34,021 nucleotides of DNA, taken from Bathymodiolus japonicus methanotrophic gill symbiont. Lineage in GTDB: Bacteria; Pseudomonadota; Gammaproteobacteria; Methylococcales; Methylomonadaceae. The notes beneath the pieces are model-generated. The model searched no databases. It was not told the origin of the DNA and saw only the letters and a program-made list of their open reading frames with translations. The position numbers and the translations under genes are program-made. This document shows positions 5,152-33,399 of the stretch, piece after piece (positions within the stretch are counted from its first letter, which is position 1; each line of letters begins with the position of its first letter). The stretch lies in contig NZ_BLYC01000033.1 of NCBI RefSeq assembly GCF_019721995.1, positions 1 through 34,021 on the forward strand. The letters are read 5' to 3'.

Positions 5152-5600
5152 ACTCTCGGGGAGTCGCTATTTTTGCGAAAGCTTGTTTTGGGCATCCCAG
5201 CCCAAGCAAGCAGCAAAAACTTAACGCGACCACTTATGCCTCCGGCGGCCCCGATTCGTCCTCGTCACCTCGTCCCGACCCAACAAGGGGTCGGAACATA
5301 GGCTCCAAATGACTTGACGCCGTGTCGGATGGCCTTTTATTTTGTCTCCACCTTCGCTAACGCTCAGACTCCGACAAAACAACGGCCCTACGGCTATCGC
5401 GGACTAAAAGTCTTCACTTCGCTAAAGCTCCGTTTCCAGGATTTTCAGCGGATGTTCAAGTTTTTTAACTGATTGATTTTATTGATAATCTTACTGACAA
5501 AGAAAGCATCAACATCATTGTAAATCAATCACTTATGAAACAAAGCCGGAAAAATTTACTTTTCTTAGCCCAGTTATAGCTGAAAACTTGAACATCGAGT
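5152..5600. mobile_element. MITE F (154 bp without B1), derivative of IS4-b
   Basis: The ends ACTCGATGTTCAAG and CTTGAACATCGAGT match the terminal repeats of the IS4-b copies at 22001 and 31540. A 3-bp duplication AAT flanks it (5149-5151, 5601-5603). Element B1 sits after its fourth base. Joining the flanks restores PLLSYLYL of the symporter. Confidence 0.85.
5156..5450 (+). mobile_element. Family-B structured element, copy B1 (295 bp)
   Basis: It runs from TCGGGGAGTCGC to TTTTCAGCG inside the left end of MITE F. Removing exactly 295 bases restores the terminal repeat ACTC|GATGTTCAAG. No target duplication is present. Length is identical to B2 and B3, but it is the most diverged of the three, with changes in the 3' hairpin (AAAAGTC/GGATTTT). 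Confidence 0.9.
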
Positions 5601-5693
5601 AATAGCGGCATCGCCAGCACTGCACACAGAGTTGATGCCATGGTCATTAAGATAGATAAGGCAACATTCCCCTTAGCCAAATAACAGATAACA

Positions 5694-5973
5694 CAGGCGC
5701 GCCATGCTACCTCACGAAATTCCGGGACTCCTGTCGCCATAATTCGTTCACCTACGCAGCGGATGGGAGATGCCCTGAACGCCCTGCATCCGCAACGACT
5801 ACGCACAAAAACCGCTTCGTCATTACTACCTCACTGGCTGGACGGCTATTCGGAATGCAATTCTTGCTCCTCTCGCGTGCTGCTAGCACACGTCGAATCA
5901 GCGAATTGCCCTGTCGCCTATCAGGGACTAAAAATCACCACTTCGCTAAGCTACGTTTCCATGATTTTCAGCG
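5694..5973 (+). mobile_element. Family-A structured element, copy A2 (280 bp)
   Basis: It splits the symporter gene. Removing exactly CAGGCGCGCC...TTTTCAGCG joins GATAACA to TTTGAGGC and restores codons for ASN-VICYL, with no duplication. Predicted stems: GCAATTC 5857-5863 with GAATTGC 5903-5909, GCT 5866-5868 with AGC 5900-5902, GTGCT 5877-5881 with AGCAC 5885-5889, CCTG 5910-5913 with CAGG 5922-5925, and AAAATCA 5931-5937 with TGATTTT 5962-5968, followed by CAGCG. Confidence 0.9.
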
Positions 5974-6317
5974 TTTGAGGCTGTGCCTCCCGCACTGCAA
6001 CCTACTAGCACCATGTCTATGGTTTGCGCTGTGGACAATTCCTGTGCCTGTGCCAGTAGATAGGCAAACAAGGGCATAAAGGTAAATTGTATGCCAAGGG
6101 TGAGCAGGATAACCAGCGGCTGCTTTAGTGCTGCCCTAAAATTCTGCCAGTTCAGGGTCATGCCCATTAAGAACATAACCACGGCGAGCAATGGGATAAT
6201 CGCACTTTTGGCCGCGACAAAGTTTGCCGGATATAAGTAGGCAATAACAGAACATAGCATTGCGGTTAGTGGAAATAAAGCAATCAGTTTATTATTCATT
6301 GCTTGTACGCCTTCAAC

Positions 6318-7007
6318 TTACCAGGGCATAGGCAGTCCATTATATTTAATAAAGCTGCCGGTTTGCGACAGTTCGAATTTCTGCATCACCCGCCTCATGC
6401 CAGCGATGCTTTCATCCACATCTATCAAACCATGCGGACCACCCATATCGGTTCTGACCCAGCCAGGATGAAAGATAAGTACGCCGGTTCCCTGTTGGCG
6501 AAAATCAAATGACAGGCTTTTCATCGCAGCATTTAGCGCAGCTTTGCTGGAGCGATGAATATAACTGCCACCACTGCTATTATCTGCCATGCTACCCATT
6601 AAGCTACTAATGGCAACAAACAGCCCTTGCTCACTTAAAGCCAGATTGCCAGCAAAAACTTCAGCCAGTTTTAAAGCGCCAAACACATTGACTTCCATCG
6701 CAGTTTGCCAGTGCTGATAATCAATAGCACCCAGCCCATAACGTTCACCATAAACACCCGCATTGGAGATTAATATATCTATAGTTACGTCTTTTAACTC
6801 TGCTGCAAGTGCGTCTATTTGCTGATGATTCTGTACATCTAGCTGGACGATACGCAGGTGCTTAGAGTGACCTGCCAATTGCGCTAATGCCGTTGCTGAT
6901 TCAGGATTACGACAGCAAGCGATAACATGCCAGCCAGCCTGTGCATATTGACGGCTAAATTCCAGACCCAGGCCTCGATTTGCGCCGGTGATTAAGACTG
7001 TTTGCAT
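6318..7007 (-). CDS. Short-chain dehydrogenase/reductase (C-factor-like) with altered active site
   Basis: The 229-residue protein has the Rossmann cofactor motif TGANRGLG (residues 7-14), SNAG (81-84), Asn107, and the catalytic Ser in ISSL (134-135). Length and layout fit the C-factor-like branch of classical SDRs, which are NAD(P)H oxidoreductases of unknown substrate. In this family the active site reads YRxSK, but here the residue is His151 (HRSSK, codon CAT), with Lys155 kept; a Tyr at 149 is two residues off. One base change (TAT to CAT) would explain it and would be expected to abolish normal catalysis. It sits between the broken symporter and bamA, all on the minus strand. Confidence 0.85.
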   Translation of the reverse strand: MQTVLITGANRGLGLEFSRQYAQAGWHVIACCRNPESATALAQLAGHSKHLRIVQLDVQNHQQIDALAAELKDVTIDILISNAGVYGERYGLGAIDYQHWQTAMEVNVFGALKLAEVFAGNLALSEQGLFVAISSLMGSMADNSSGGSYIHRSSKAALNAAMKSLSFDFRQQGTGVLIFHPGWVRTDMGGPHGLIDVDESIAGMRRVMQKFELSQTGSFIKYNGLPMPW

Positions 7008-7069
7008 AAGTGTATTTTCTCGTTTCTTAGTATCGTAGGCTGGGCTAGATTATCAAGCGCAGCGCTGAT

Positions 7070-7116
7070 AACGTAACCCAGCATATTGCATATATCCGAA
7101 GGTGCTGGGTTACGTT
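7070..7116. repeat. 14-bp perfect inverted repeat between bamA and the dehydrogenase
   Basis: AACGTAACCCAGCA (7070-7083) pairs perfectly with TGCTGGGTTACGTT (7103-7116), with a 19-base loop. It lies 44 bases past the bamA stop and could act as a terminator or RNA-stabilising hairpin, though no clear T-run follows. It looks like a REP-type intergenic repeat. Confidence 0.6.
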
Positions 7117-7159
7117 TTGTTACAATGCAAAAAAATCTAACCCTAGTTACAATAATACA

Positions 7160-9520
7160 TTAAAACTGCGAGCCAAAATTGAATTGAAATGATTGCAGCT
7201 GATCACCTGGTTGAGCATTCAGAGGAATTGCATAACTGACCTGTAAAGCACCAAAAGGTGATAACCATTTGGCTGCTATCCCGGTTGAATATCTGAAATC
7301 CTTAAATGAAAAACCAGGTTTTACAGTATCAAAACTTTCATCCGATTTTTTCTGAATATAAGGGCCTTGAATCGACCCTATATCAAAAAAGGCCATGATT
7401 CGAACCGAGTCAACATCGGGCATAAAAGGGATAGGAAAAATAAGTTCCGTGTTTCCTATCATTTTAATATTACCCCCATAAGGTCTGGGTTGAGAACCAT
7501 CATTTAGATCACAAGTCCCATTACAGTGATCACGCGGTCCTATAGTATTTTGCCTCCAGCCTCGAACCGAGTTCACTCCACCCGCAAAATAATTCTCAAA
7601 GAAAGGCAAAGTCTCAGTGTCTCCATAGCCATTACCATAAGCAACAGAAGCCATCAATTTTAAAACCAGGTCTTTTGCGAGAGGAAAATAATGCTGATCT
7701 TTTGCACTCACTTTATAATAGGTCAAATCACTGCCCGGAATTGTCACTAAACCTGAAACACGTTGTTGACTACCTACCGTTGGAAAAATAGCTTTATTCA
7801 GCGTATCACGCACCCATCCCATAGATAAAGGAAAGTTTAAAAAACTATCCCCATTTGCAGCAATCCAGACCGGTAGTTCAGGAGGAGAAAATTGCCCCTG
7901 CTTAAGTTTGGTATGTTTAATATTAAAACCAAGACTAAATCGTTGGTTTTCATTAAGTGGAAAACCAAAGTTAAACCCACCACTGATCACGTCAGTTAAA
8001 TAATTTGAAATATTAGCTTGTTGTGCATCAGTTGTTTTAAATAGGAAGTTATAACCTAGACTAACCCCGTCCCGTGTAAAATAGGGATTAGTGAAACCAA
8101 GGCTATAGAGCGTCGAAACATTACTTTTATTAAAATTAACACTGACTCGCTTACCCGAACCAAAGATATTGTCCTGAGTCACACTGGCATTATAGATAAT
8201 TCCCTGGGTTTGCGAATAACCAATACCGGCCATTAGATTACCCGAGGATTTTTCAGTCACTGCAAAGTTTAAGTCTAGCTGGTCACGCGTACCTGGCACT
8301 TTAGGTGTTTCTATACCAACATTTTCAAAATAGCCTAGGCGATTTAAGCGTGCTTTAGAGCGCTCGATTTTAAGTGACGATGCCCAAGCCCCTTCCATCT
8401 GACGCATCTCTCTGCGCAGCACTGCGTCGCGGGTTTTAGTATTACCATGCATGCTAATACGCCTAACATAGGCACGATTAGCAGGGTCTACAAAAAATGT
8501 CATATCGACAATTTTAGTGTCGTTATGAATATCCGGCACCATATTGACATTGGCAAATGCATAGCCTTCTTCTCCCAGCCGATCAGAAATTGCCTTCGAG
8601 GTCAGAGTTGCATTTTTCCGTGAAAAAACTTCAGTCGGCCCCACCAGTAGCAGAGCAATTAGCTCTTCAGGATCGACTACTAGATTACCGCTGAGCTTAA
8701 CACTGCCCAGAGTAAACAAGTCGCCCTCTTCGATATTCACCACCACATAAATATCTTTTTTATCCGGTGTAATCGAAACCTGGGTAGATTTGATATTAAA
8801 GTTAATATAACCACGATCCAGATAGTAGGAGCGTAAGCGCTCTAAATCGGCAGATAGTTTTTGCTTGGAGTATTGATCATCTTTGGTATAAAAAGACAGC
8901 CAGCCAGTGACGCTTAATTCAAAATTCTTTATTAAGTCCTTTTCGGAGAAAACTTTGTTACCAATTATGTTGACAGACTTTATTTTTGCGACCACACCTT
9001 CTGATATATTGATATTGATACTGACCCTGTTTCTTTCCAGCGGCAAAACATTGGTATCAATTTTTAAGCTATATTTACCATGACTAAAATACTGACGGCG
9101 TAATTCCTGTTCTACTTTATCCAGTATTTGCCGGTTAAACACCTTGCCTTTAGCCAGCCCAATAGTCGTTAATGCGGTTAATAAATCTTCAGTTTTCAGA
9201 TCATCATTACCTTCTATCTCGATTTCAGCGATGGAAGGACGCTCCTGCACTTCGACCAGTAATACGTCACCTTCACGCCCCATGGAAATATCCTGGAAGA
9301 ACCCGGTTTTAAACAAGGCTCTGATCGCAGGTGCGATGTTTTTATCCAGTAATTTTTCACCTATATTCACCGGCAGATAATTGAATACCGTACCCACTGA
9401 TATGCGCTGCAAGCCTGTGACACGGATATCTTGTACGATAAAGCCCGGCTCTTCACTATATGCAATGGAAGGTAGTGACAATAACAGCAAAAATAATGGC
9501 AGAAAAACTTTAAATTTCAT
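7160..9520 (-). CDS. bamA: Outer-membrane protein assembly factor BamA
   Basis: The 786-residue precursor has a signal peptide ([20 protein letters not shown], cut near residue 20-22). About 400 residues follow with five POTRA repeats, starting [20 protein letters not shown]. The C-terminal beta-barrel ends in Phe. The barrel carries the family's VRG(F/W) motif as VRGW at 652-655 in loop 6, followed by a Cys pair (666, 670). BamA is the central subunit of the BAM complex that folds and inserts barrel proteins such as the porin at 2339. Its usual neighbours rseP and skp are absent: epmA lies upstream and a dehydrogenase downstream. Length is typical and no damage is seen. I see no strong ribosome site before the ATG. 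Confidence 0.95.
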
Positions 9521-9567
9521 GTACTAGTCGTAGCAGAAGAAAATCCGTAAAAACAAAAAACTGGCCC

Positions 9568-9734
9568 CTAAGGAGCGAGAATTCAATAATACCCGAGTCT
9601 GATTGGTCTTTTGACTCCATCGGCTCACTAGAAAAATAGTTGCGTAGTCTGCTATGCGCCAGTTTTCCTAGCACGCCTGTGAAACCAAAATCCTGCGTCA
9701 TACTTGCAGGTACTCTTAAGCCCTCACTCCTAAG
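9568..9734. repeat. Large palindrome P3 (167 bp) with the P1/P2 core
   Basis: The outer arms CTAAGGAGCGAG (9568-9579) and CTCACTCCTAAG (9723-9734) pair at 10 of 12 bases. The centre is GCGTAGTCTGCTATGC (9642-9657), almost the P2 core. Arms differ from P1 and P2, and the middle of the arms pairs less well. The right arm includes the epmA stop codon (9730-9732). Confidence 0.65.
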
Positions 9735-10707
9735 CATTTTCAATAGGAAATGCTAAAACCTCATCGATATGATTTTTCTGGCTGATAACCATCAATAATC
9801 GGTCTATACCCATGGCGATACCCGAGCAATCTGGCAGACCACTTTGTAGCGCCGCTAAAAAGTGCAGATCCTTACTCACCGCAATAGCCCCATTTTTCTC
9901 TCGCAATGCAATCTCCTGATCAAAGCGACTCTCCTGTTGCTTTACATCGGCTAATTCATGATAGCCATTCGCAAGTTCAATACCATCAATAAACACTTCC
10001 ACACGTGCCACAGTAAGCGGTTTGCCAGTATTTAAACGTGCCAGCGAAGGCAGGCAAGCGGGATAATCATAAACCATACATACGCCGGTTTCTCCCAAGT
10101 GCTGTTGCACGCAATGACTAAATAAAAAATCCAGCCAGGTAGCATGATCATCAGTACAGATATTAATCGCCTCTGAAAACCCCAGTCTCTTTGCGCTATG
10201 GCTATAGATCCCCCGGTCAAACTGCAGTGCATCCAATCCGGTGTATTGCTGAAAAACCTGTTGATAGCTAATCCGCTCTGCAGGCTCTGCGAAGCGGTCA
10301 GCGGGTAATAATCGGTCTAACAATAGCTCTACATCATCCATCAGTTGCGCTAAGTCATAGCCGACCCGGTACCACTCCAGCATACTGAACTCAGGGTTAT
10401 GCAAACGTCCTGACTCGCCGTTCCTAAATGCCCTGATTATCTGGTAAATAGAGCCTGTCTGTGCAGCTAACAGGCGTTTCATGGCAAACTCTGGAGAAGT
10501 TTGCAGATATAAAGCCTGCTGCTTACCCGAAAGTTGACTGGTGGCAAAAAAATCTAAATGCGGGTCAGTTCCAATCGCATGGCACAGTATTGGCGTTTCA
10601 ACTTCCAGTACATTTTCAGCATAAAAATACTGCCTGATTACATGCAGTAACTTAGCGCGTAACTGGATTATCTCAATCGAGCAAGCAGGTTGCCAGCTTA
10701 TTGTCAT
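9730..10707 (-). CDS. epmA: EF-P lysine (beta-lysyl) ligase EpmA
   Basis: The 325-residue protein is a class II lysyl-tRNA synthetase-like catalytic domain without the anticodon-binding domain, as expected for EpmA (PoxA/GenX/YjeA). Motif 2 reads RAFRNGESGRLHNPEFSMLE and motif 3 GIAMGIDRLLM near the C-terminus. It activates (R)-beta-lysine with ATP and transfers it to Lys34 of EF-P. It lies 37 bases downstream of efp on the same strand, so the two are probably cotranscribed, while epmB is divergent. Its stop codon lies in the arm of palindrome P3. Confidence 0.95.
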   Translation of the reverse strand: MTISWQPACSIEIIQLRAKLLHVIRQYFYAENVLEVETPILCHAIGTDPHLDFFATSQLSGKQQALYLQTSPEFAMKRLLAAQTGSIYQIIRAFRNGESGRLHNPEFSMLEWYRVGYDLAQLMDDVELLLDRLLPADRFAEPAERISYQQVFQQYTGLDALQFDRGIYSHSAKRLGFSEAINICTDDHATWLDFLFSHCVQQHLGETGVCMVYDYPACLPSLARLNTGKPLTVARVEVFIDGIELANGYHELADVKQQESRFDQEIALREKNGAIAVSKDLHFLAALQSGLPDCSGIAMGIDRLLMVISQKNHIDEVLAFPIENA

Positions 10708-10744
10708 TTGCTATTTATCGAATTGCTGTCACTAGTTATCTAGT

Positions 10745-11314
10745 TTAAGCTTTTGCCCGCGAAACATATTCCCCAGTGCGGGTATCTACCTTAACTACTT
10801 CGCCGATCTGCACAAATAATGGCACACGCACCACAGCCCCAGTTTCTAATGTCGCTGGCTTACCGCCACCACCTGATGTATCACCTTTTAGACCAGGGTC
10901 AGTTTCAGTTATTTCCAATTCAACAAAATTAGGCGGAGTCACTGAAATAGGCGCATCATTCCATAAAGTTAAAATACACATCGCCTGGTCTTTTAGCCAT
11001 AATTTAGCATCGGCAACCGCAGTCTCATCCGCCTGATACTGGTCAAAAGATTCTGGATCCATAAAATGAAAAAACTCGCCATCATTGTACAAAAACTGCA
11101 TATCTAACTCGACGACATCCGCACCTTCAAGCGATTCACCTGACTTAAATGTGCGTTCAATTACTCGTCCTGTTTTTAGGTTTCTAAATTTAACGCGGTT
11201 AAAAGCCTGCCCTTTTCCCGGTTTAACAATCTCATTCTCGATAATAGAACAAGGGTCACCATCCAGCATTAACTTTAATCCACCCTTGAACTCACTTGTA
11301 CTGTAATTCGCCAT
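10745..11314 (-). CDS. efp: Translation elongation factor P
   Basis: The 189-residue protein has the standard three-domain EF-P length. Lys34 lies in the loop VKPGKGQAF, the site modified by EpmA with beta-lysine. EF-P relieves ribosome stalling at polyproline stretches. The C-terminal domain ends [14 protein letters not shown], typical of the gammaproteobacterial form. It heads an efp-epmA pair and is divergent from epmB across an 83-base spacer, so the whole modification pathway except the hydroxylase EpmC is together. Confidence 0.97.
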
Positions 11315-11348
11315 TTATATCTCTAATATGTCCGCTTAAATTTTTGCT

Positions 11349-11354
11349 ATTATA
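11349..11354 (-). promoter_or_regulatory. Candidate sigma-70 -10 box of efp
   Basis: The minus strand carries a perfect TATAAT, placing the start about 30 bases before the efp ATG. No good -35 box at 16-18 bases is visible, so this is only a candidate. Confidence 0.45.
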
Positions 11355-11397
11355 CCTTGCATCATTTGAATTCTGTAGAATATTCCATATTTAAATT

Positions 11398-12381
11398 ATG
11401 ACAGCACACTTACCTAGCTGGCAAAAAGACCTGGCTGCAGGCTTTAGCAATCCAGAAGCTTTACTCCAATATCTAAAGCTGGATTTCAAGGCATATTCAG
11501 CTCAGGCCAGGGATGATTTTTCTATGCGTGTACCTCTGAGTTATGCAGCCTGCATGCAAAAAGGCGAACCCAGCGACCCACTACTGATGCAGGTTTTGCC
11601 AATTGCTGATGAACTGAATAACCCAGTTGATTTTCAGGATGACCCGGTCGGTGATTTGGCTGCTATTACTGAAAATTGCATAATCCACAAATATCAGGGC
11701 AGAGTCTTATTAATTATCACTGGCGGATGTGCAATTAATTGTCGCTTTTGTTTTCGACGTAACTTTCCGTATGCCAACGTACAACTGAATACACAAAAGG
11801 AAGGGATAGCTCTGAACTACATCCGGGGTAATTCCACTATTCATGAAGTGATTTTAAGCGGGGGTGATCCCCTGCTGTTAAGTGACCAGAGGCTAAAGGC
11901 TTTACTGCAGAAGTTATCTAGTATTGCGCATATAAAGCGCATACGCATCCACACGCGCTTGCCTATTGTGTTGTCCACTCGCGTAACAACCGAACTTATT
12001 AGAATATTAAATAACTTACCCATCCCGGTTATTATGGTTATGCATTGTAATCATGCGCATGAACTAAGTGAGCAGGTGATCACAGCATGTCTGGCATTAA
12101 AGCAGCCGAATATTACCTTATTAAATCAATCGGTATTGCTCAAAGGTATTAATGATAACGCGCAAGTATTGCAAGCGTTAAGTGAAAAGTTGTTTACGAC
12201 GGGAGTTCTGCCCTATTATTTGCACTTATTAGATAAGGCGAAGGGGACTGCACATTTTGAAATGAGCCAGATAAAGGCAATTAAGTTACATCAGAAATTA
12301 CAACAGGTATTGCCTGGGTATCTGGTGCCTAAGTTAGTAAAGGAACAGCAAGGGGAAGTAGCAAAAACATTGATTATATAG
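11398..12381 (+). CDS. epmB: EF-P beta-lysylation protein EpmB (lysine 2,3-aminomutase)
   Basis: The 327-residue radical-SAM enzyme has the cluster motif CAINCRFC (Cys111, Cys115, Cys118), after which YANVQL and the barrel follow. The C-terminal part (VPKLVKEQQGE) should contain the PLP-binding Lys of lysine 2,3-aminomutases. EpmB converts L-lysine to (R)-beta-lysine, the substrate of EpmA. It is divergent from efp-epmA. No clear Shine-Dalgarno sequence precedes the ATG. Element A3 begins two bases after its TAG stop and separates it from its terminator. Confidence 0.95.
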   Translation: MTAHLPSWQKDLAAGFSNPEALLQYLKLDFKAYSAQARDDFSMRVPLSYAACMQKGEPSDPLLMQVLPIADELNNPVDFQDDPVGDLAAITENCIIHKYQGRVLLIITGGCAINCRFCFRRNFPYANVQLNTQKEGIALNYIRGNSTIHEVILSGGDPLLLSDQRLKALLQKLSSIAHIKRIRIHTRLPIVLSTRVTTELIRILNNLPIPVIMVMHCNHAHELSEQVITACLALKQPNITLLNQSVLLKGINDNAQVLQALSEKLFTTGVLPYYLHLLDKAKGTAHFEMSQIKAIKLHQKLQQVLPGYLVPKLVKEQQGEVAKTLII

Positions 12382-12383
12382 CA

Positions 12384-12662
12384 CAGGCGCGCCATGCTAC
12401 CTCACGAAATTCCGGGACTCCTGTCGCCATAATTCGTTCACCTACGCAGCGGATGGGAGATGCCCTGAACGCCCTGCGTCCGCAACGACTACGCACAAAA
12501 GCCGCTTCGTCATTACTACCTCACTGGCTGGACGGCTATTCGGAATCCAATTCTTGCTCCTCTCGCGTGCTGCTAGCACACGTCAAATCAGCGAATTGCC
12601 TGTCGCCTATCAGGGACTAAAAATCACCACTTCGCTAAGCTACGTTTCCATGATTTTCAGCG
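12384..12662 (+). mobile_element. Family-A structured element, copy A3 (279 bp)
   Basis: Same ends as A2, with one base deleted in the CCCTG stem and a few substitutions. It sits two bases past the epmB stop. Removing it joins TATAGCA directly to GGAGTAAAAAAGC, which begins the terminator hairpin. No target duplication. Confidence 0.88.
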
Positions 12663-12667
12663 GGAGT

Positions 12668-12687
12668 AAAAAAGCTTTAGCTTTTTT
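12668..12687 (+). terminator. Intrinsic terminator of epmB
   Basis: AAAAAAGC-TTTA-GCTTTTTT forms a hairpin whose 3' arm is the T-run, and it works in either direction. A second 7-bp hairpin, CAATAGC-TAAA-GCTATTG, follows at 12698-12715. Before A3 arrived the first hairpin began about 12 bases after the epmB stop. It also lies between epmB and the converging gene at 12729. Confidence 0.65.
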
Positions 12688-12728
12688 CTAATAATAACAA
12701 TAGCTAAAGCTATTGTGCTCCATAGGTT

Positions 12729-13395: not shown

Positions 13396-14140
13396 TTAAG
13401 GACATTCTTTTCCTTCAATATCTTCATGGCCTTCATGGTATTTTTTTTGCATAAGGGAGCTGGAACAGGCGCGCCATGCTACCTCACGAAATTCCGGGAC
13501 TCCTGTCGCCATAATTCGTTCACCTACGCAGCGGATGGGAGATGCCCTGAACACCCTGCGTCCGCAACGACTACGCACAAAAGCCGCTTCGTCATTACTA
13601 CCTCACTGGCTGGACGGCTATTCGGAATGCAATTCTTGCTCCTCTCGCGTGCTGCTAGCACACGTCGAATCAGCGAATTGCCCTGTCGCCTATCAGGGAC
13701 TAAAAATCACCACTTCGCTAAGCTACGTTTCCATGATTTTCAGCGTAAGCCGTTGTTGCTAAGGCTCTCAGTATATCGGTACGACTAATAATGCCGACCA
13801 AATCCTTGTCGCGATACACTGGAAAACTTCTGACCGAGGTATTCTGGAATTTTTCAGCCAAGTCCACAATGCTCATTTCGGCTTCGACCTTAACCACATC
13901 AGCAGTCATATACTCAGTTACATTTCCAGCGCTGCTCTGATTATAAGCGACTTCCAGAACCATTTTCAGGGCATCTTTCTCAGAAAACATGCCAATCACT
14001 TTATCATGTTCATCAAATACTGGCGCACCAGTAATTTTATGATCAAGAATTTTTTTTATTGCATCAATGCCAGTCATCTCTTTAGTTAATTTAATTAACC
14101 GCGTGGTCATATAATCTGCAACTGTAATTTTTGCCAACAT
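13396..14140 (-). pseudogene. CBS-domain pair protein, 3' end split by element A4
   Basis: The start is ATG at 14140, chosen because GGAG lies 8 bases upstream (GAAGGAGAGGACTATG) and the following MLAKITVADYM begins the first CBS domain. CBS 1 covers about residues 6-60 (ITGAPVFDEHDKVIGMFSEK) and CBS 2 about 80-135 (RSFPVYRDKDLVGIISRTD). Such pairs usually bind adenosyl ligands. Removing A4 gives a 154-residue protein ending EGKECP. With A4 the frame ends after 140 residues with tail AENHGNVA. Both CBS domains survive, so the shortened protein may still work. It lies 31 bases after nqrM and may belong to the nqr transcript. Confidence 0.8.
13466..13745 (+). mobile_element. Family-A structured element, copy A4 (280 bp)
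   Basis: It is inserted in the 3' end of the CBS gene. Exact removal joins CTGGAA to TAAGCC and restores the codons for TTAYSSS in one frame. No target duplication. Confidence 0.9.
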
Positions 14141-15434: not shown

Positions 15435-15714
15435 CAGGCGCGCCATGCTACCTCACGAAATTCCGAGACTCCTGTCGCCATAATTCGTTCACCTACGCAG
15501 CGGATGGGAGATGCCCTGAACGCCCTGCGTCCGCAACAACTACGCACAAAAGCCGCTTCGTCATTACTACCTCACTGGCTGGACGGCTATTCGGAATGCA
15601 ATTCTTGCTCCTCTCGCGTGCTGCTAGCACACGTCGAATCAGCGAATTGCCCTGTCGCCTATCAGGGACTAAAAATCAACACTTCGCTAAGCTACGTTTC
15701 CATGATTTTCAGCG
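15435..15714 (+). mobile_element. Family-A structured element, copy A5 (280 bp), inside the nqr operon
   Basis: Same ends as the other copies, with four or five substitutions. It lies between nqrF and apbE, antisense to the operon. Flanks AGCATAGA and GTGTGCTT show no duplication. Its hairpins would be transcribed as part of the nqr message. Confidence 0.88.
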
Positions 15715-22079: not shown

Positions 22080-23532
22080 ATGTTAATGAATGCCCCAGCC
22101 ACCTTTATCCAAAGCTATATTGACGATTTAAATGATGCGCTCAATCAGCTAAAACCCGGAGCCGCTTTGACACGGATTCAAGCCGCTTGGTTGGGCACTT
22201 GTTTAACGTGCATACTGCTAATGAACTCTGTTTGCTGGGCTAAGTTTGAGCGAGCAAGCCTTGGAGATTGCAAAGTAGCCGCATTATCCTGGGTGTTTCG
22301 TAAAGCAAGTATACCCTGGGACTGGTTGCTACAGGTGAGTGTGGTCTTAATTTTAAAACGTTATGGCATTACTGAAGGTGTGTTGGCCTTTGATGAATCA
22401 GACCGAGCACGATCTAAGTCTACAAAACGTATTTATAAGGTTTACAAGCAGAAACACAAAGGCTCCGGCGGGTATGTTAATGGACAAACGATAGTATTAT
22501 TGCTGCTAGTTACCTCATCCATTACAGTGCCTGTCGGTTTTTTCTTTTATATGCCGGATCCAGCCTTAAAGCAGTGGGATAAAGAAGATAAACGGTTGAA
22601 AAAGAGCGGTATAGCAAAAAAAGATCGGCCTATTAAGCCTGAACGTGACAGTGCCTACCCGACCAAAACAGAGATTGCATTAGGCTTATTAAAAGAGTTT
22701 AACAGGCGCGCCATGCTACCTCACGAAATTCCGGGACTCCTGTCGCCATAATTCGTTCACCTACGCAGCGGATGGGAGATGCCCTGAACGCCCTGCGTCC
22801 GCAACGACTACGCACAAAAGCCGCTTCGTCATTACTACCTCACTGGCTGGACGGCTATTCGGAATGCAATTCTTGCTCCTCTCGCGTGCTGCTAGCACAC
22901 GTCGAATCAGCGAATTGCCCTGTCGCCTATCAGGGACTAAAAATCACCACTTCGCTAAGCTCCGTTTCCATGATTTTCAGCGAGTGACTGTCAGCAGTGC
23001 ACGATTAAAGGTGAGTTCTCACAGTAAAAAGCGCTTTGTCATTGCCTTAAAATATGACGGTGAAAACGACTATCGCTATTTAGTGGCGACAGACCTGACT
23101 TGGCGCACACAAGATATTATTCAAGCCTATACGTTGAGATGGCTGATTGAGGTTTTCTTTGAGGACTGGAAGCTTTATGAAGGATGGGGGCGTGAGGCCA
23201 AACAATTAGATGAAGAGGGATCAAGCCGTGGCCTGGTTCTGAGTCTTTTGTTTGACCATTGCCTTCTCCTTCACCCAGAGCAAATAGCCCGCATTGAAAG
23301 CAAACTACCTGCGTATACCGTAGGAAGCTTACAGCGCAAGTCTCAAATGGATGTACTGCTTGAGTTCATCACGTCATTGCTAGAGTTTCCAGATCCTGGT
23401 GATAAGCTGAAAGAGTTAGGTGAATTAATAAAGGATGTGTTTCAACTGATGCCATCAGGAAAACATATGATTGGCAGAGATTTAGGCCGCTTAGGGCCAA
23501 CAGCATCATTAAAGTATTGTTCTGCTGGGTGA
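22080..23532 (+). pseudogene. IS4-b transposase, internally deleted and split by A6
   Basis: The N-terminal piece (22080-22702) has FDESDRARSKSTK, probably with the first catalytic Asp. The C-terminal piece (from 22984) has YTLRWLIEVFFEDWK, fitting the IS4-type Y-(2)-R-(3)-E-(6)-K signature. The middle, including the DALYGEKAF region present in copy 2, is missing: 235 bases of copy 2 (32536-32770) have no counterpart. Allowing for an extra T in copy 2, the loss is 234 bases or 78 codons. Element A6 sits at the junction. This copy cannot make active transposase. Confidence 0.85.
22703..22982 (+). mobile_element. Family-A structured element, copy A6 (280 bp)
   Basis: Standard ends inside the IS4-b transposase gene. 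Compared with copy 2 it stands in place of 235 bases bordered by a direct TTAAAGT repeat (32533 and 32768 regions). Either a repeat-mediated deletion came first and A6 inserted into the scar, or insertion and deletion were one event. Confidence 0.88.
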
Positions 23533-25744: not shown

Positions 25745-25779
25745 TACTTAACCTATTTGGCATTTACTATAAGTACACG

Positions 25780-25843: not shown

Positions 25844-25898
25844 AGCATTCAATAAGGCGATAAAAAATCAAACATTATACCTGATCAAAATAATGAAT

Positions 25899-27019
25899 CC
25901 TGAATTCGTATAATAAGTGCATAACCCCCTGCAAGTATTGGCTAGACTAACACCTGTTGAATTAAGACAAGACATAGGTGTAAAGTAAACAGCTACCAAA
26001 CAATTTACAGAGGCTACAAATGAGCTATACACACCTATGTCCTGAAGAAAGATATTATATAGAAATTGAATTAAAAAAGGGAACTTCACAGAATAAAATA
26101 GCAGAAGCCTTAGAACGAAGCCAAAGCAATATTTCACGCGAGATTAAACGCAATACAGGTCAAAGAGGCTACAGGCATAAACAAGCAGAAGATTTTGCCC
26201 AAGAACGACACAAAAACAAGCCTAAAGAGGTTAAATTAACGGATGAAATAAAAGGCATTGTTAATGTTCGCATTGAGGATGACTGGAGTCCTGAGCAGAT
26301 TGCAGGGCGGTTAAAACAAGAAGGTATAATTAGTCTTCATCATGAAACAATCTACCAGCATATTCTGGCGGACAAAAAGGCAGGGGGTGAACTATACAAG
26401 CATCTTCGGCATCAGAACAAAACCTATCGCAAGCGGTATGGGTCAGCCCATAATAGGACAGGAATCCCTAATAGAGTCGATATAGATGAGCGTCCTGAAG
26501 AGGTCAACAACCGTAAGCGTATAGGTGATTGGGAGGCAGATACAATCATTGGGAAAAATCACAAAGGGGCGATTGTAACGTTGGATGAGCGAGTCTCTAA
26601 ATTACGGTTGGCCTTCCCTTTAGCGGGGAAAAAGGCTCAATATGTATTAGACGCAACTATTTTAATGCTTGATCCTATAAAAAGCTTTGTTAAAACAATT
26701 ACTTTTTATAACGGGAAAGAGTTTACCCTGCATGAAAAAATAGCAGAAGCACTAGGTTGTGATACGTATTTTTCGACTCCATACAGCTCTTGGGAAAGAG
26801 GGCAAAATGAGAATGCTAATGGCTTATTAAGACAGTATTTCCCTAAAGTAATGGATTTGATTGATGTTACGATAAAAGAGGTTTTTATAGCCGTTGATAA
26901 GCTAAATAGTCGCCCTAAAAAGTGTCTCAATTACAAAACACCTTATGAGGTATTTGAAGAGCTGACTGGGATAGATATGAAAAATTTATTGGGTTATGTA
27001 CTTATGACTTGAATTCAGG
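25899..27019 (+). mobile_element. IS30-family insertion sequence (1121 bp)
   Basis: The ends are imperfect inverted repeats of about 29 bases: CCTGAATTC...AAGTGCATAACCC on the left and GGGTTATGTACTT...GAATTCAGG on the right. AAT flanks both sides as a probable 3-bp duplication. A single gene fills it. It lies between uvrD and the DUF2892 gene. Confidence 0.9.
26020..27012 (+). CDS. IS30-family transposase with a changed catalytic residue
   Basis: The 330-residue protein has the IS30 layout: N-terminal helix-turn-helix (ERYYIEIELKKGTSQNKIAEAL, SNISREIKRN), a second HTH (WSPEQIAGRL), then the DDE core. The first Asp is 174 (WEADTIIG) and the Glu is 264 (RGQNENANGLLRQYFP). The second Asp, normally in SDNGKEF or FDNGKEF, is Tyr230 here (FYNGKEF, codon TAT). 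One G-to-T change explains it and should abolish catalysis. The gene is otherwise intact, so the loss is probably recent. Confidence 0.9.
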   Translation: MSYTHLCPEERYYIEIELKKGTSQNKIAEALERSQSNISREIKRNTGQRGYRHKQAEDFAQERHKNKPKEVKLTDEIKGIVNVRIEDDWSPEQIAGRLKQEGIISLHHETIYQHILADKKAGGELYKHLRHQNKTYRKRYGSAHNRTGIPNRVDIDERPEEVNNRKRIGDWEADTIIGKNHKGAIVTLDERVSKLRLAFPLAGKKAQYVLDATILMLDPIKSFVKTITFYNGKEFTLHEKIAEALGCDTYFSTPYSSWERGQNENANGLLRQYFPKVMDLIDVTIKEVFIAVDKLNSRPKKCLNYKTPYEVFEELTGIDMKNLLGYVLMT

Positions 27020-27096
27020 AATTAAAAATGCGTTGGTTTTACCGGTTATTTTCATCCTGAGCTTGCACATTTTTATTAGGCCTGTATATTTACTAT

Positions 27097-27300
27097 CTGA
27101 AGTTTCCCAATAATTATTTATGGTAAAATTGAAACTATGCTACAACTATATGAAAAAAACAGTCTTTTCATTCATTTCAAATGCTATTGCCTAAGGGGAA
27201 TTAAGTAGGGGTTTGCTATAAACATGGCAAAACCACCTAAAATAAACCTCGATACACCAGCATTGTGTCTTTCAGCTACTCAATAATTGGGAAACTTCAG
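27097..27300. mobile_element. MITE C, copy 2 (204 bp, 8-bp target duplication)
   Basis: The same terminal repeats as at 4820-5015 (CTGAAGTTTCCCAATAATT). TTTACTAT is exactly duplicated at 27089-27096 and 27301-27308. It is 8 bases longer than copy 1 owing to an indel in the ATAAACATGGCAAAACC part. Confidence 0.92.
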
Positions 27301-27365
27301 TTTACTATTGTTAAACACTGACTATCTGTCCTCTTATTATAAATTAGAATAAAAAAGGAAAAACC

Positions 27366-27584
27366 ATGAACTTTGATTTTAAACGCATGCTAAAATTTGA
27401 AATTAACGTCGGCACAAAAGAAAAAAAAATGCGCATCTATTCAGGTGCCGCTTTATTGTTTGTTTCCCTATTTATAGCTTCTGTGCCTTTACTATTAATC
27501 GGCCTGATACTGGTTGCTACTGGTTACACTGGATTTTGCCCGGTTTATTCAGGCATAGAAAGATCGACTGTAGAAGAAGAGTAA
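27366..27584 (+). CDS. DUF2892-type small membrane protein
   Basis: The 72-residue protein has a charged N-terminus with NVGTKEKKMRIYSG, two close membrane segments (about residues 24-55), and GFCPVYSG near the end. This matches DUF2892 (YgaP-like membrane domain) with its NVG-R-R start and GFCPxY motif. Function is unknown; relatives often accompany rhodanese or sulfur and redox proteins. AAGGA precedes the ATG at suitable spacing. Upstream are an IS30 element and MITE C, so its original promoter may be displaced. Confidence 0.8.
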   Translation: MNFDFKRMLKFEINVGTKEKKMRIYSGAALLFVSLFIASVPLLLIGLILVATGYTGFCPVYSGIERSTVEEE

Positions 27585-28427
27585 ACACCGTAAGTTGGGC
27601 ATAGGCACGCAAGGTGACAAGTGACTCTCCCAACTAACCTGATTAGCCACAGCAGATCCATTCACACCTTCTCTCCCTCCCCCTAGCCCTCAGAATAACC
27701 CACTACACTCAGCCTATCAGTTTAATCTAGCTTGCGACTAGTGCCTCCCTATTTTGTATCAAATATTAATAGTTGAATTTAAGAGATGCTGTACTAGAAT
27801 AAATATGTCTTGCTTAGGAACTATTTCCCCTGAAGCTATTCTTTATTCAAGGTGACTGATTATGCTGCAACAAATAATGGACTATTTTCGTATAGGGCTG
27901 TGGTTACAACAAACAGAAACCGAAGAGCGACAACTAAAAGCATACCTCATACGTTTGCTAAAAATATTCACGCTCTCCATCAAGGCTTTTATTAAAGATA
28001 ATGGCGCCTTGAGAGCATCGGCACTCACACTTTATTCGCTTTTATCTATAGTACCTGTTATTGCCATGTTATTTGGTATCGCCAAGGGCTTTGGCTTTGA
28101 AGCACTTTTAGAACAGCGACTGCTAGAACAATCATCCGAACAAAGCGCCCTTATCGAAAAATTATTTGAGATGGCAAAGCACCTGTTAGACTCCACTAAA
28201 GGTGGTGTCGTTGCCGGCGTTGGCGTTGGCGTTGGCGTTGCAATTCTTTTTTGGACCGTGCTAAAAGTCATTAGCAATATCGAAGAGTCATTTAATCATA
28301 TCTGGCGAGTGACAAAATCACGGACTCTGGCACGCAAGCTAAGTGATTATCTCTCGGTCATGTTACTCGCTCCACTATTGATGATTGCAGCCAGCAGTAT
28401 CAGTATCTATAGACTTTCAGAAAATTA

Positions 28428-29821
28428 ATTTCCGAACAAACAAAAACGACAGAGGGGAAACTGGCTTATAATTTTCGTCCCAACACTAACGGAAACAGTC
28501 AAAAATGGTATCCCTCACTTTTTCAAAGTCAATTGTAGGCCGACTAAAAAAAAATATGGCGACAACTCTCAAGCTAAGTAATATTCGTTTATATCGATTA
28601 ACTCAAGCTCTACTCTGGTTCAGTGAATGCATGGGAATCAAAGAAATAGCACGCCTAATGTGAGTCTGTGAAAAAACCATTATAAATTGGCTGAAAACAT
28701 TCATGCATAAAGGTGTCGGTTGGTTAATAGGGCAACACTATCAAGGACGTGGTCGGAAGTCAAAGTTAACTAAAGACCAGAAAAATAGATTGGTTGAGTT
28801 GATAAAGAAAGGCCCAGAAGACAATGGATTTCATTGTGGAATATGGAATACTGCGATGATTGCCGAGCTTATTTGGTTAAAACTTGAAGTTCGTTATAAA
28901 ACTTGAACTATTTATCAAGCCTAATGAAAAAACTGGGCTTCAGTTATCAAAAAGCTCGTTTTGTGACTGATCGCCAAGAAGAAGAAAAGTACGAGCTTGA
29001 AAGAAAAACGTGGCTGGAAGAAACATTGCCTGCCATTATGGAAAAGGCGGTAGAAGAAAAGAGTGTCGTTTTATTCGGTGATGAGGTGTCATTTGCTATG
29101 TGGGGTTCATTGGCACGAACCTGGGCTCCAATAGGAGAGCAACCCACAGTGAAAACATCAGGGATTCGAAAAGGGTTGAAAATGTTTGGTACGATCGAAC
29201 TCGAAGGAGGGAGTTTTCAATACCGAGAATCATTGGCTTATGAGATAAAACCAAAGTCACTTAGACTTTTAAAAGAAGCTGGGCTGCCTCAAGAATTTTT
29301 AGCTATTCTTAAAAGCTTAAAAAATGAGAAATATCCAACACAGAAGCTTTTTATGGAAGCGATATATTCTATTGCCGACAACGTCTTAATCGAGAGTTAT
29401 AAGCCAATGATATTACAACACGCTGAAACATCTGGGCGTTTTAATGGTGAAAGCTATGTTGAGTTTTTAACACAATTGCTGGCTTATTATAAAGGCAAGA
29501 TTATTCTAATTGAAGATGGTGCCCCGTATCATGGAAGCGGTGTTATTAAGGAATTTAAGTTAGCTAATGTAGATCGTTTGACAGTAGAACGTCTCCCTGC
29601 GTTCTCGCCGGATTTTAATCCGATTGAGAAATTATGGAAAAATACGAAACGCGATTCGACTCATATGAAGTATTTTAAAACTTTTGAAGATCTTCATGAT
29701 TCAGTTGTGCAAACTTTTAACACTTATATGCATGATGCCAGTAAAGTGATTTGTGTTATGCAAAAATTGCGGGAAGATTTCGTTGTTACCGCCTAAGTTT
29801 AAGCGCTCCAAATTTGGAAAT
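28428..29821 (+). mobile_element. IS630-family insertion sequence (about 1394 bp)
   Basis: TA is duplicated at 28426-28427 and 29822-29823, the hallmark of IS630/mariner elements, and ATTTCC...GGAAAT form the outermost inverted repeat. Removing it restores the yihY frame exactly, which fixes the ends. Confidence 0.85.
28556..29796 (+). pseudogene. IS630-family transposase, degraded
   Basis: The frame starts MATTLKLSNIRLYRLTQALL with an HTH region, but has a TGA at 28661-28663 (RLM-stop-VCEKTI), a second TGA at 28904-28906, and a frameshift before LMKKLGFSYQKARF. The C-terminal catalytic part is intact: VLFGDEVSF (first Asp), ILIEDGAPYH (second Asp) and FSPDFNPIEKLWK (Glu). At least two stops and one frameshift make it inactive. 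Confidence 0.88.
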
Positions 29822-30543
29822 TATTTATCTGAGAAACTATATGTACAAACCCAGTTAACGTCTCTTATCAATGCCATCGCAATACCAGGCACAATCCTTG
29901 CATTAAAGCTACTCAGCTATTTGCCGATACTCATTTTATGGGGCTTATTTAGCTTTGTGTTTATTTTTATGCCTAATACTACGGTGAGTTACCGCTCTGG
30001 CTTATTTGCCGGCATTATCTCAGGGACTATCTATTATATAGTGCAGTCTTTATATGTCTCATTACAAATTGGGGTGAGCAGTTATAACGCGATTTATGGT
30101 AGCTTTGCTGCACTACCCTTATTTCTGGTATGGCTGCAGATTACCTGGGTTATTGTATTGATAGGCTCAGAAATATCCTTTTTTCATCAGAACCTTGCTT
30201 TTTATCAATTTAATCAGCATATTAAAAACCTGAACTTCGCATCTAAAGTAACGCTAGCCCAGCAAATTATGCACTCGATTATTGATCGCTTCAAACAAGC
30301 AGGTGCATCTCCCTATTCTGCTGAAGAACTGAGCATACACAATCAACTGCCAATTTCCATTTTACAACCCATCCTATCAGAACTGGTGGATTGTCAGTTA
30401 TTAATCAAAATAGATATACCAGATGACCAGCCTGCTAGCTATCAACCCGCTAGAGATCCCAGCCTGCTTAGTGATGAAATGATTACTGAAGCTTTAGAAA
30501 ATAATGGCGAATCCTATTGCATTGCGCAAAACCAAGTGTGATT

Positions 30544-30803
30544 CAGGCGCGCCATGCTACCTCACGAAATTCCGGGACTCCTGTCGCCGTAATTCGTTCA
30601 CCTACGCAGCGAATAGGAGATGCTCCAGCCGCCCTGCGTCCGCCACAGACTGAGCACAAAGCAGCTCAGTCATGGCTACCACAAATGGCTCTACGGCTAT
30701 TCGGGATAAAATTTTAGCCTCCCTCGCGCGCTATCGCGCACTTCGGATTGGCAAATTTCCCTGCGCCTTCTGGAGACTATCAGCCCGTCCGGGGCTGACA
30801 GCG
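30544..30803 (+). mobile_element. Diverged family-A element, copy A7 (A' type, 260 bp)
   Basis: The first ~80 bases match A1-A6, then the sequence diverges while the fold is kept. Stems: AAATTT 30709-30714 with AAATTT 30753-30758; GCC 30717-30719 with GGC 30750-30752, leaving the same 2-base bulge as in A; GCGCG 30726-30730 with CGCGC 30735-30739; TCAGCCC 30780-30786 with GGGCTGA 30792-30798, followed by CAGCG. It starts two bases after the yihY stop. Confidence 0.8.
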
Positions 30804-30894
30804 TGAGTATATCAATCTCAGCCTATAGGGATGGGGGGGGGTATTCAAGAAGAATGTAACGTCTAGGGCGCTGGTCAATTACTCAGTGCCATTT

Positions 30895-30932
30895 AAGAAA
30901 AATGCCATCCTAAATTTACTCTAGGAAGGCAT
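30895..30932 (-). terminator. Intrinsic terminator of the haemoglobin gene
   Basis: Read on the minus strand, ATGCC-T-TCCTA pairs with TAGGA-T-GGCAT and a T-run follows. It starts about 7 bases past the stop codon. Confidence 0.75.
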
Positions 30933-30938
30933 AAAACT

Positions 30939-31313
30939 TTATTTTCCAAGCACATCCTTTCGCGTGCTTTCTGCAATCGCTGCTGCTTGTCCAATTAGAT
31001 CATCAGGTACGCCTAATTCTTTTAGCGTTGCACCTAAGTGCTCCATAACCGCATCAAAATGTGAACTATCTAAACCCATTTCTACCAAACGTGCATGAAC
31101 GCTGCGCATATCACCACCGGTGTAATTATTCGGTCCACCAAACGCCATGGTAAAAAATGCTTTCTGTTTAGCAATCTGCTCTTCCATATTAGTTTTACTA
31201 AAAAAACGATTAATACGGTGATCGCCTAACACTTTTCGATAAAACAGCTCAACGGCTGCATCAACTGCTGCTTCCCCACCAATTTGATCATATAAACTTG
31301 CTTCTTCGCTCAT
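30939..31313 (-). CDS. Group 1 truncated haemoglobin
   Basis: The 124-residue protein fits the trHbN family: SLYDQIGGEAAVDAAVELFY, Tyr25 (B10 position), FFTMAFGGPNNYTGGDM, and the proximal His73 in MRSVHARL. It binds haem, and group 1 members bind O2 and usually detoxify NO. I chose the ATG at 31313 over the GTG one codon upstream because AGAGG lies 6 bases before it. A terminator follows at 30895-30932. It stands alone with mobile elements on both sides, so no partner gene is suggested. Confidence 0.92.
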   Translation of the reverse strand: MSEEASLYDQIGGEAAVDAAVELFYRKVLGDHRINRFFSKTNMEEQIAKQKAFFTMAFGGPNNYTGGDMRSVHARLVEMGLDSSHFDAVMEHLGATLKELGVPDDLIGQAAAIAESTRKDVLGK

Positions 31314-31415
31314 CACAACCCTCTTTGTTATTGTTATGCTTAAAAAATCAGAACCCTGATAATAACAAGTATGTACTGACTATGCAATTACAGAAAGCAT
31401 AAAAATCACATTAAA

Positions 31416-31539
31416 CTGAAGCTTCCCAATAATTATTTATGGTAAAATTAGAACTATGCTACAACTATATGAAAAAAATAGTCTTTTCATTCGTTTCAAA
31501 TGCTATTGCCTAAGGGGAATTAAGTAGGGGTTTGCTATA
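31416..31539. mobile_element. MITE C, copy 3, right part lost
   Basis: It begins CTGAAGCTTCCCAATAATT and matches the first 120-odd bases of the other MITE C copies. IS4-b copy 2 follows directly after GGTTTGCTATA. The remaining part of the MITE is not found after the IS, so a deletion took it. Confidence 0.85.
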
Positions 31540-31800
31540 ACTCGATGTTCAAGTTTTTGATATTGAGAAGGTAAAATCAGGTATTCTGAGGTTGTTGTAA
31601 TTTTATCGGTGCAAGCCCATGTTAATGAATGCCCAGCCACCTTTATCCAAAGCTATATTGACGATTTAAATGATGCGCTCAATCAGCTAAAACCCGGAGC
31701 CGCTTTGACACGGATTCAAGCCGCTTGGTTGGGCACTTGTTTAACGGGCATACTGCTAATGAACTCTGTTTGCTGGGCTAAGTTTGAGCGAGCAAGCCTT

Positions 31801-32095
31801 TTGGGGAGTCGCTATTTTTGCGAAAGCTTGTTTTGGGCATCCCAGCCCAAGCAAGCAGCAAAAACTTAACGCGACCACTTATGCCTCCGGCGGCCCCGAT
31901 TCGTCCTCGTCACCTCGTCCCGACCCAACAAGGGGTCGGAACATAGGCTCCAAATGACTTGACGCCGTGTCGGATGGCCTTTTATTTTGTCTCCACCTTC
32001 GCTAACGCTCAGACTCCGACAAAATAACGGCCCTACGGCTATCGCGGACTAAAAATCATCACTTCGCTTAGGCTCCGTTTCCCTGATTTTCAGCG
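31801..32095 (+). mobile_element. Family-B structured element, copy B2 (295 bp)
   Basis: TTGGGGAGTCGC to TTTTCAGCG. Copy 1 of the IS reads AGCAAGCCTT|GGAGATTG at the same place, so exactly 295 bases were added with no duplication. Stems include CCGACCC/GGGTCGG, TTATTTTGTC 31982-31991 with GACAAAATAA 32018-32027, and AAAATCA/TGATTTT before the final CAGCG. Confidence 0.93.
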
Positions 32096-33104
32096 GGAGA
32101 TTGCAAAGTAGCCGCATTATCCTGGGTATTTCGTAAAGCAAGTATACCCTGGGACTGTTTGCTACGGGTGAGTGTGGTCTTAGTTTTAAAACGTTATGGC
32201 ATTACTGAAGGTGTGTTGGCCTTTGATGAATCAGACCGAGCACGATCTAAGTCTACAAAACATATTTATAAGGTTTACAAGCAGAAACACAAAGGCTCCG
32301 GCGGGTATGTTAATGGACAAACGATAGTATTATTGCTGCTAGTTACCTCATCCATTACAGTGCCTGTCGGTTTTTTCTTTTATATGCCGGATCCAGCCTT
32401 AAAGCAGTGGGATAAAGAAGATAAACGGTTGAAAAAGAGCGGTATAGCAAAAAAATATCGGCCTATTAAGCCTGAACGTGACAGTGCCTACCCGACCAAA
32501 ACAGAGATTGCATTAGGCTTATTAAAAGAGTTTAAAGTTGCGCATAGCCTGATTAAAATTAAAGGCGTACTGGCTTGATGCGCTGTATGGTGAAAAAGCC
32601 TTTATGGACGAAGCCGCTAAAGAACCTGGAGGCTCGCAGGTGATTAGCCAATTACGTAAAAACCAAAATATTGAATATAGAGGTAGAATAAGGTCAGTCG
32701 AGAGCTACTTTAATTCGATTAACAAAGGCATTGATCAGATAATACGTGTACGTGGCGGCAAAGAGATTAAAGTGACTGTCAGCAGTGCACGATTGAAGGT
32801 GAGTTCTCACAGTAAAAAACGCTTTGTCATTGCCTTAAAATATGACGGTGAAAACGACTATCGCTATTTAGTGGCGACAGACCTGACTTGGCGCACACAA
32901 TATATTATTCAAGCCTATACGTTGAGATGGCTGATTGAGGTTTTCTTTGAGGACTGGAAGCTTTATGAAGGATGGGGGCGTGAGGCCAAACAATTAGATG
33001 AAGAGGGATCAAGCCGTGGCCTGATTCTGAGTCTTTTGTTTGACCATTGCCTTCTCCTTCACCCAGAGCAAATAGCCCGCATTGAAAGCAAACTACCTGA
33101 GTAT

Positions 33105-33399
33105 TTGGGGAGTCGCTATTTTTGCGAAAGCTTGTTTTGGGCATCCCAGCCCAAGCAAGCAGCAAAAACTTAACGCGACCACTTATGCCTCCGGCGGCCC
33201 CGATTCGTCCTCGTCACCTCGTCCCGACCCAACAAGGGGTCGGAACATAGGCTCCAAATGACTTGACGCCGTGTCGGATGGCCTTTTATTTTGTCTCCAC
33301 CTTCGCTAACGCTCAGACTCCGACAAAATAACGGCCCTACGGCTATCGCGGACTAAAAATCATCACTTCGCTTAGGCTCCGTTTCCCTGATTTTCAGCG
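33105..33399 (+). mobile_element. Family-B structured element, copy B3 (295 bp)
   Basis: Nearly identical to B2. Copy 1 of the IS reads GCGTAT|ACCGTAGG here, so again exactly 295 bases were added without duplication. The transposase frame runs on into the element and stops at 33171-33173. Confidence 0.93.

Follow-up and report, generated by a model that had tools for sequence, protein, structure and literature searches.

How do short repeats that carry no gene of their own come to be inserted ten times within a single contig? The question is raised by the window analysed here, a stretch of 34,021 nucleotides (positions 1 to 34,021 of contig 33, NZ_BLYC01000033.1) from the genome of the Bathymodiolus japonicus methanotrophic gill symbiont, a member of the Methylococcales (GCF_019721995.1; 4.97 Mb, 98.9% complete; hereafter G000). 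An earlier note on this DNA had described ten short elements of two local families, A and B, inserted precisely and without target duplication, and had inferred a single-strand, HUH-type or RNA-based mechanism. All ten were located (six A, three B and one A-like element with a different end hairpin), and neither A nor B contains a credible gene. Both families are present, but they are not local: the same architecture is common to A, B and further combinations throughout the order. We consider it fairly probable that the elements are non-autonomous and move as single-stranded DNA, served in trans by an enzyme that is probably of the HUH type. The strand that folds, referred to below as the T-strand, is the reverse complement of the orientation used in the earlier note and lies on the minus strand for all ten elements.

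Counts for G000 refer to the 1,715,194 bases that were read (parts of C1, C2, C4, C10 and C11; the whole of C3, C6, C7 and C90-C109; and the window). The precision of insertion was assessed by joining the 60-bp flanks of 174 full-length copies and matching them against the fetched sequence, so that all empty sites lie, by construction, in repeated DNA, which includes copies of the IS4 type and other members of the family. A spanning empty site was found for 82 copies, and in 67 of them the junction is exact, with zero bases gained or lost. The other 15 comprise seven with gaps of at least 12 columns, as given by tandem or neighbouring copies, and eight with gaps of 1 to 7 columns, C2:24344 among the latter. 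Two B elements of the window for which the earlier note had rebuilt empty sites (B2 and B3 in its numbering) were re-tested and are both exact. Insertion without target duplication is hence the rule, with one apparent 6-bp exception. These data bear directly on the view that the elements are ordinary miniature inverted-repeat transposable elements (MITEs) of the DDE type whose target duplications are absent or have been lost. Other DDE-type elements do occur in G000, some DDE copies lack target duplications, and the 6-bp exception would be in keeping with such an origin. We nevertheless regard it as extremely improbable, given the 67 exact sites, the lack of inverted repeats between the A or B ends as read, the one-base rule that applies to a single side, at constant distance, and the single favoured folding strand, the last two of which are described below. 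The earlier preference for single-strand movement over ordinary DDE transposition is upheld by these results.

The companion statement that the flanks share no motif did not survive. In the orientation of the earlier note, G stands at +4 in all five right flanks that it had compared (A2 TTTG, A4 TAAG, B1 GATG, B2 GGAG and B3 ACCG), at nine of the ten window elements, and as the fourth base past the element in 98% of 180 copies; the flanks of the genome copies follow a one-base rule that is almost absolute and always keeps the same distance. On the T-strand the target reads CNNN^CGCTG..., with C at -4 in 432 of the 442 copies typed in G000. At 403 distinct sites, the -4 column holds 2.04 bits, followed by -1, which avoids G (0.30 bits), and -5, which avoids C (0.19 bits). 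The rule also holds elsewhere: C occupies -4 in all 16 rows that stem from other genomes or from plasmids (two rows being one site), at each of the 16 hairpins in the 400 kb read of the complete genome G008, and at 55 of 56 hairpins among the matches listed for named genomes, and the mirror G at +4 is found in all 37 matches extending to the hairpin end of B (5 rows from G000 itself, 6 from one record of a viral collection). As a separate observation, an A element (C2:36058) and a B element (C2:249311) sit at the identical position of one repeat (GTTTTTGAT|ATTGAGAAGG), which hints at preferences beyond the one-base rule.

The same base recurs at the far end of the element itself, where the T-strand likewise carries C at -4: CCTG in A, CC plus two variable bases in B, and CTTG in the Methylotuvimicrobium family. 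It is present in 27 of 28 aligned B-type copies (one from G000); the exception is L275, whose end is uncertain because its alignment starts at query base 10. Positions -3 to -1 differ among lineages (CTTG, CCAA, CCGT, CCGC, CCGG, CTTA and others). Such an identical specificity at the target and at the element end would meet the need of a cleave-and-join enzyme of the IS200/IS605 kind. A copying of the variable first base of B from the target was considered and rejected, as none of 11 flank positions is significantly associated with it (smallest p 0.059); the only association is with the neighbouring base of the element.

The folding strand was determined from two alignments, one of 11 A-type and the other of 28 B-type elements, each of which was folded in both orientations. 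Consensus energies are -70.8 (A set) and -91.9 kcal/mol (B set) for the T-strand, compared with -37.4 and -62.2 kcal/mol for the other strand. The T-strand fold of the B set comprises 86 pairs with 98.5% of cells paired, against 38-46% in slid controls. Because the fold was derived from the same alignment, this percentage is favoured, and the covariation counts are the stronger point: 23 pairs covary, with both sides changed, versus 9.0 in shuffles, and none of 500 shuffles was as high. Wobble cells on the T-strand number 228 for G.T versus 10 for A.C (ratio in slid controls, 0.8 to 1.7), an excess that marks the T-strand as the folding strand. The resulting architecture consists of a 5' cleavage-site hairpin, a branched core and a second hairpin that ends just ahead of CNNN. 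In the consensus of 304 columns, helix 1 occupies columns 2-48 and helices 12-15 columns 225-298; the hairpins abut both cleavage sites. The foot of the end hairpin is constant (CGCTG/TAGTC), and its stems are interchangeable (AAAATC, TCAGCC, CCAGCC, TTAATCC).

The conserved core is left unexplained by an HUH scheme, which keeps an RNA-based explanation alive. Group II introns can reverse-splice into single-stranded DNA at replication forks, and the T-strand might be a mobile structured RNA of another class that does the same, or else an RNA that guides a nuclease. Its covarying branched fold spans the whole T-strand and not the ends alone, and the single-sequence fold of B reaches a z of -4.30 as RNA (0 of 200 shuffles better) and -3.09 as DNA. 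The same strand bias and zero duplication would be expected, a DNA transposase was not found, and the family hairpin occurs in three of five fetched reverse transcriptase loci, about what a density of 283 per Mb predicts. We still judge this explanation unlikely. Rfam at gathering score gave no match in the whole window; in a stretch with one A and one B element, intron and HEARO models gave none at E values up to 10, with three chance-like hits. TnpB is absent with working controls, and RRXRR/IscB gave no match with silent controls. The reverse transcriptases resemble defence or retron types, judged by their reading frames, and far ends that lack a hairpin, as expected from aborted reverse transcription, are few (14 A-type and 5 B-type in 834 kb).

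The orientation of the elements is also biased in G000. With the elements masked, the T-strand lies on the strand of positive GC skew, the expected lagging-strand template in G000, in 310 versus 131 cases (40-kb bins) or 289 versus 152 (20-kb bins). The skew of the elements themselves (0.21 for the T-strand of A) was considered as the source of the bias and rejected: masking weakens the bias (from 331:110 to 289:152 in 20-kb bins), but it persists. The 67 exact insertions are split 55 versus 12 in favour of the same strand, and host-gene selection is unlikely to explain this split because the sites are repeated DNA.

The sample of G000 contains 485 end hairpins, or 283 per Mb, a few of which resemble chance matches; extrapolation gives a whole-genome total of about 1,400. 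A recognised far end lies within 330 bp of 443 of them, and the family accounts for 7.2% of the sampled sequence (123,246 of 1,715,194 bases, with nested copies entered at their full length). The far ends are GCGCGCCTG in A and GACTCCCC plus two variable bases in B; since they pair with several end hairpins, the units are modular. Nested and reversed insertions are present. Among the 42 hairpins with no far end within 330 bp, 33 enclose another element hairpin and three lie at contig ends; the remainder comprises one hairpin scored as chance, one with its far end at 421 bp and four for which none lies within 5 kb; some at least of these four look like chance hairpins beside host genes. Most of the converse cases, the few far ends mentioned above with no end hairpin of the two searched types nearby, either carry another hairpin or a modified one, or are nested or interrupted by other repeats, and at least one (C1:389046) is plainly hairpin-less. 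Element lengths are sharply peaked among the 443 (175 at 295 bp, 110 at 260 bp and 103 at 280 bp), which speaks against a capture of folded single-stranded fragments by host repair or replication with no dedicated enzyme. Although no enzyme was found and structures of this kind would stall forks, we regard capture as very improbable, as a C fixed at -4 throughout the order would call for a specific cleaving activity.

A further form of 183 bp with two inverted end hairpins was observed three times, at unrelated sites (C3:109942-110125, L197; C6:115592-115775, L217; C104:1949-2132, L041). All three have C at -4 and G at +4, each side on its own strand; empty sites were looked for and none was found. 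From its sequence, this double-hairpin form resembles a REPIN, a pair of repetitive extragenic palindromic (REP) sequences.

The family is widespread. Including G000 in each case, A was matched in 17 of 41 genomes; of 301 genomes sampled from the order, 171 match B, representing 33 of 50 genera. The A elements of genome G006 are 99% identical to those of G000. Named carriers among the matches listed are Methylotuvimicrobium buryatense 5G, Methylomonas, Methylomicrobium, Methylicorpusculum and a Bathymodiolus methanotrophic symbiont, and four plasmid matches stem from Methyloprofundus, Methylobacter and Methylomonas. Among the matches listed for named genomes, 34 of 56 hairpins lack an A or B far end in the adjoining 400 bp. 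An alignment of 16 of these 34 assigns at least 13 to a family devoid of open reading frames with a far end of its own; many of the others lie at locus ends. Viral contigs contain no stretch with the A-type pattern and 14 with the B far-end pattern, and those compared with B contain copies or pieces of it. Copies also occur on contigs labelled as a thiotrophic symbiont (L323), a Cycloclasticus symbiont of Bathymodiolus (L353) and a Rhodospirillales metagenome-assembled genome (L326); these may reflect transfer between co-symbionts or mis-binning. A description of the family was not met in the portions of the literature searched, which is no proof that none exists. Passages of PMC8788690 give 1,303 and 1,847 insertion sequence elements, apparently in two Methyloprofundus endosymbionts, and do not mention these repeats.

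Within the window, the A elements lie at 1295..1574 (right flank ATTG), 5694..5973 (280 bp, TTTG; the query for the genome searches), 12384..12662 (279 bp, GGAG), 13466..13745 (TAAG; in a CBS gene according to the earlier note), 15435..15714 (GTGT, the sole window copy that departs from the +4 G rule) and 22703..22982 (AGTG; within an IS4-type element). The A-like element (30544..30803, 260 bp, TGAG) combines the far end of A with another terminal hairpin, CGCTG TCAGCCC...GGGCTGA TAGTC. The B elements are found at 5156..5450 (295 bp, GATG; in the terminal repeat of a MITE according to the earlier note) and, in a second IS4-type copy and with exact empty sites, at 31801..32095 (GGAG) and 33105..33399 (ACCG). 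At the A insertion at 22703-22982, 235 bases are gone relative to positions 32536-32770 of the second IS4-type copy; TTAAAG repeats bound this gap, and the deletion seems to have occurred before or together with the insertion.

No gene flanked by the same ends, which the earlier note had suggested looking for, was present in the 1.72 Mb of G000 sequence read or around the 22 matches of the Y1 transposase model in this genome; the remaining 3.26 Mb were covered by family searches alone. The long open frames near hairpins that lack far ends include host genes and insertion sequence transposases. A Y1 TnpA bounded as a unit by family ends was found at none of the 22 G000 matches, nor in the relatives, for which only the fetched loci were scanned. 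The sole intact Y1 gene found in G000 (L108, C5:59189-62518) encodes a REP-transposase-like protein of 222 residues that scores 65 bits, under the curated cut-off of 80. Ten L108-like loci were fetched, and family hairpins were found in none of them; the REP-associated tyrosine transposase (RAYT) locus read in G008 has other inverted repeats. The most complete IS200 TnpA frame is broken near its start, and its element has other ends. TnpB (PF07282) had no match in G000, with the control positive in 6 of 14; RRXRR/IscB and Y2 had none either, in searches whose control genomes were silent. Reverse transcriptase genes are present on C102, C92 and C85 (L244, L234, L265) as a tandem pair, a single gene and one beside a helix-turn-helix-like gene; their reading frames suggest defence or retron types. 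The flanks of L108 are reminiscent of a terminal-inverted-repeat type mentioned in part of PMC3733652.

Integron integrases deserve separate consideration, since a tyrosine recombinase that acts on a folded single strand, as the integron integrase does on attC, would formally give the same product: strand-specific, folded and with no duplication. Matches above the curated cut-off exist in 25 of 41 genomes. The boxes of attC are GTT/AAC; in contrast, the context here is CNNN^CGCTG without attC boxes, the element hairpin was found in none of six fetched integrase loci, and the carriers G016 and G022 have no integrase match above the cut-off. G000 itself keeps only a C-terminal piece, which an A copy adjoins (L371:1876, C1 ~416,375). 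We therefore consider insertion by such a recombinase improbable.

Based on the exact insertion in most testable copies, the C at -4 of the target and of the far end, the folding strand with its hairpins, the distribution over the order and the strand bias in G000, we infer a single-stranded intermediate, HUH chemistry and an enzyme acting in trans, and propose the following hypothetical scheme for an element laid out on the T-strand as 5'-...CNNN^[CGCTG-hairpin-TAGTC - branched core - second hairpin - CNNN]^...-3', in which (i) replication would expose the T-strand, which folds; (ii) an enzyme supplied in trans, most likely an HUH enzyme of the Y1 class, would recognise the end hairpins; (iii) cleavage would occur three bases 3' of the C, both at the element end and at the target, the latter preferably exposed on the lagging-strand template; (iv) the far end would be joined to the near end or to the target, and the second strand would be filled in by replication. 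Cleaving and joining strands in this way would give zero duplication.

Several observations weigh against this scheme. The partner enzyme was not found among Y1, Y2, RRXRR, TnpB, reverse transcriptase, integron integrase and L108 relatives. L108 itself is flanked by unrelated inverted palindromes, AAAGGGGACG(C/T)TACCCTTT, and its best match in G006, where the A elements are nearly identical, reaches only 46% over 153 residues; the IS200 TnpA matches inspected in G000 are fragments or interrupted. A C at -4 followed by any NNN is unlike the RAYT sites C|T or C|A given in parts of PMC8266576. The core structure is conserved throughout the order and is not required for a transposition of the ends alone. 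The other strand of B beats most shuffles too (DNA z -2.09), and A alone folds no better than shuffles (z -0.59 and -0.58 for the T-strand, -0.44 for the other strand). In G008, the expected strand, by local unmasked skew, is occupied by 7 of 12 full-length chromosomal copies and the opposite one by 5. Finally, C2:24344, one of the 82 empty-site cases, shows the apparent 6-bp duplication (ATTGAG). Further copies of the family have struck the same target sequence. We tentatively raise the possibility of a new class of mobile element, in which a gene-less, wholly structured strand of about 260-310 nt, conserved in an order of methanotrophs, follows the CNNN^ rule and enters single-stranded DNA by means of an undescribed enzyme or by its own catalysis; if it were true, the core would be a functional RNA or DNA of the system and not filler.

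Comparison with known systems places single-strand transposition by an HUH-type enzyme in context. The cleavage motif of IS200/IS605 elements is a tetra- or pentanucleotide, and the family differs from them in its one-base motif (C at -4), in hairpins that abut the cleavage sites, in a covarying core that fills the element, and in that a TnpA with matching ends was not found in the Y1 search. It resembles IS200/IS605 (IS608, ISDra2) and their gene-less derivatives in the lack of target duplication, the end hairpins on one strand and a short cleavage motif 5' of the cut that is repeated at the element's own end (in part PMC6006769 and PMC8266576, otherwise general background). The preference of IS200/IS605 for the lagging-strand template, for which the same sources apply in the same measure, compares with 310:131 in G000 and 7 of 12 in G008. 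With REPs and REPINs served by a RAYT (TnpA_REP), the family shares many gene-less hairpin copies that would be served in trans, a cleavage that involves a C (C|T or C|A in the portions of PMC8266576 used here) and, in the three 183-bp copies, two inverted end hairpins. It differs from REPs in its makeup, one end hairpin plus a core, in its length of about 260-310 bp compared with 20-40 bp, and in a foot of CGCTG...TAGTC in place of a GTAG or CGTC tag; moreover, the fetched RAYT loci are not flanked as a unit by family hairpins. Because the defining transposase with matching ends was sought and not found, we do not claim membership in IS200/IS605 or the REPINs; the family works like a passenger of either.

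Other systems are more distant. From general background, HEARO, elements that consist of an omega-RNA only (IscB-IsrB) and the TnpB-associated reRNA are similar in being structured, free of open reading frames, about 300 nt long and bordered by a motif in one flank. A HEARO-like RNA was considered for its size and flank motif, and was set aside with no Rfam match and with no RRXRR hit, the controls for the latter being silent; TnpB reRNA elements are set apart by the lack of a TnpB match in G000 with working controls. The family further differs from DDE-type MITEs in having no terminal inverted repeats in the ends as read and, as a rule, no target duplications, from group I and II introns and described RNA families by the lack of a covariance-model match in the Rfam searches described above, and from integron cassettes in having no GTT cleavage context and in carriers with no IntI match above the cut-off.

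In summary, a one-base rule at both ends, a strand-specific fold and a distribution over 33 of 50 genera make for a sharp and testable system. Methylotuvimicrobium buryatense 5G is open to genetic manipulation, and as it carries the family, the question can be addressed directly. In the B. japonicus symbiont, about 7% of the sampled sequence belongs to a mobile family that has no gene of its own. Its cognate enzyme, if of the HUH type, would have an unusually relaxed target; if it is not, the family would represent a new way of moving DNA.

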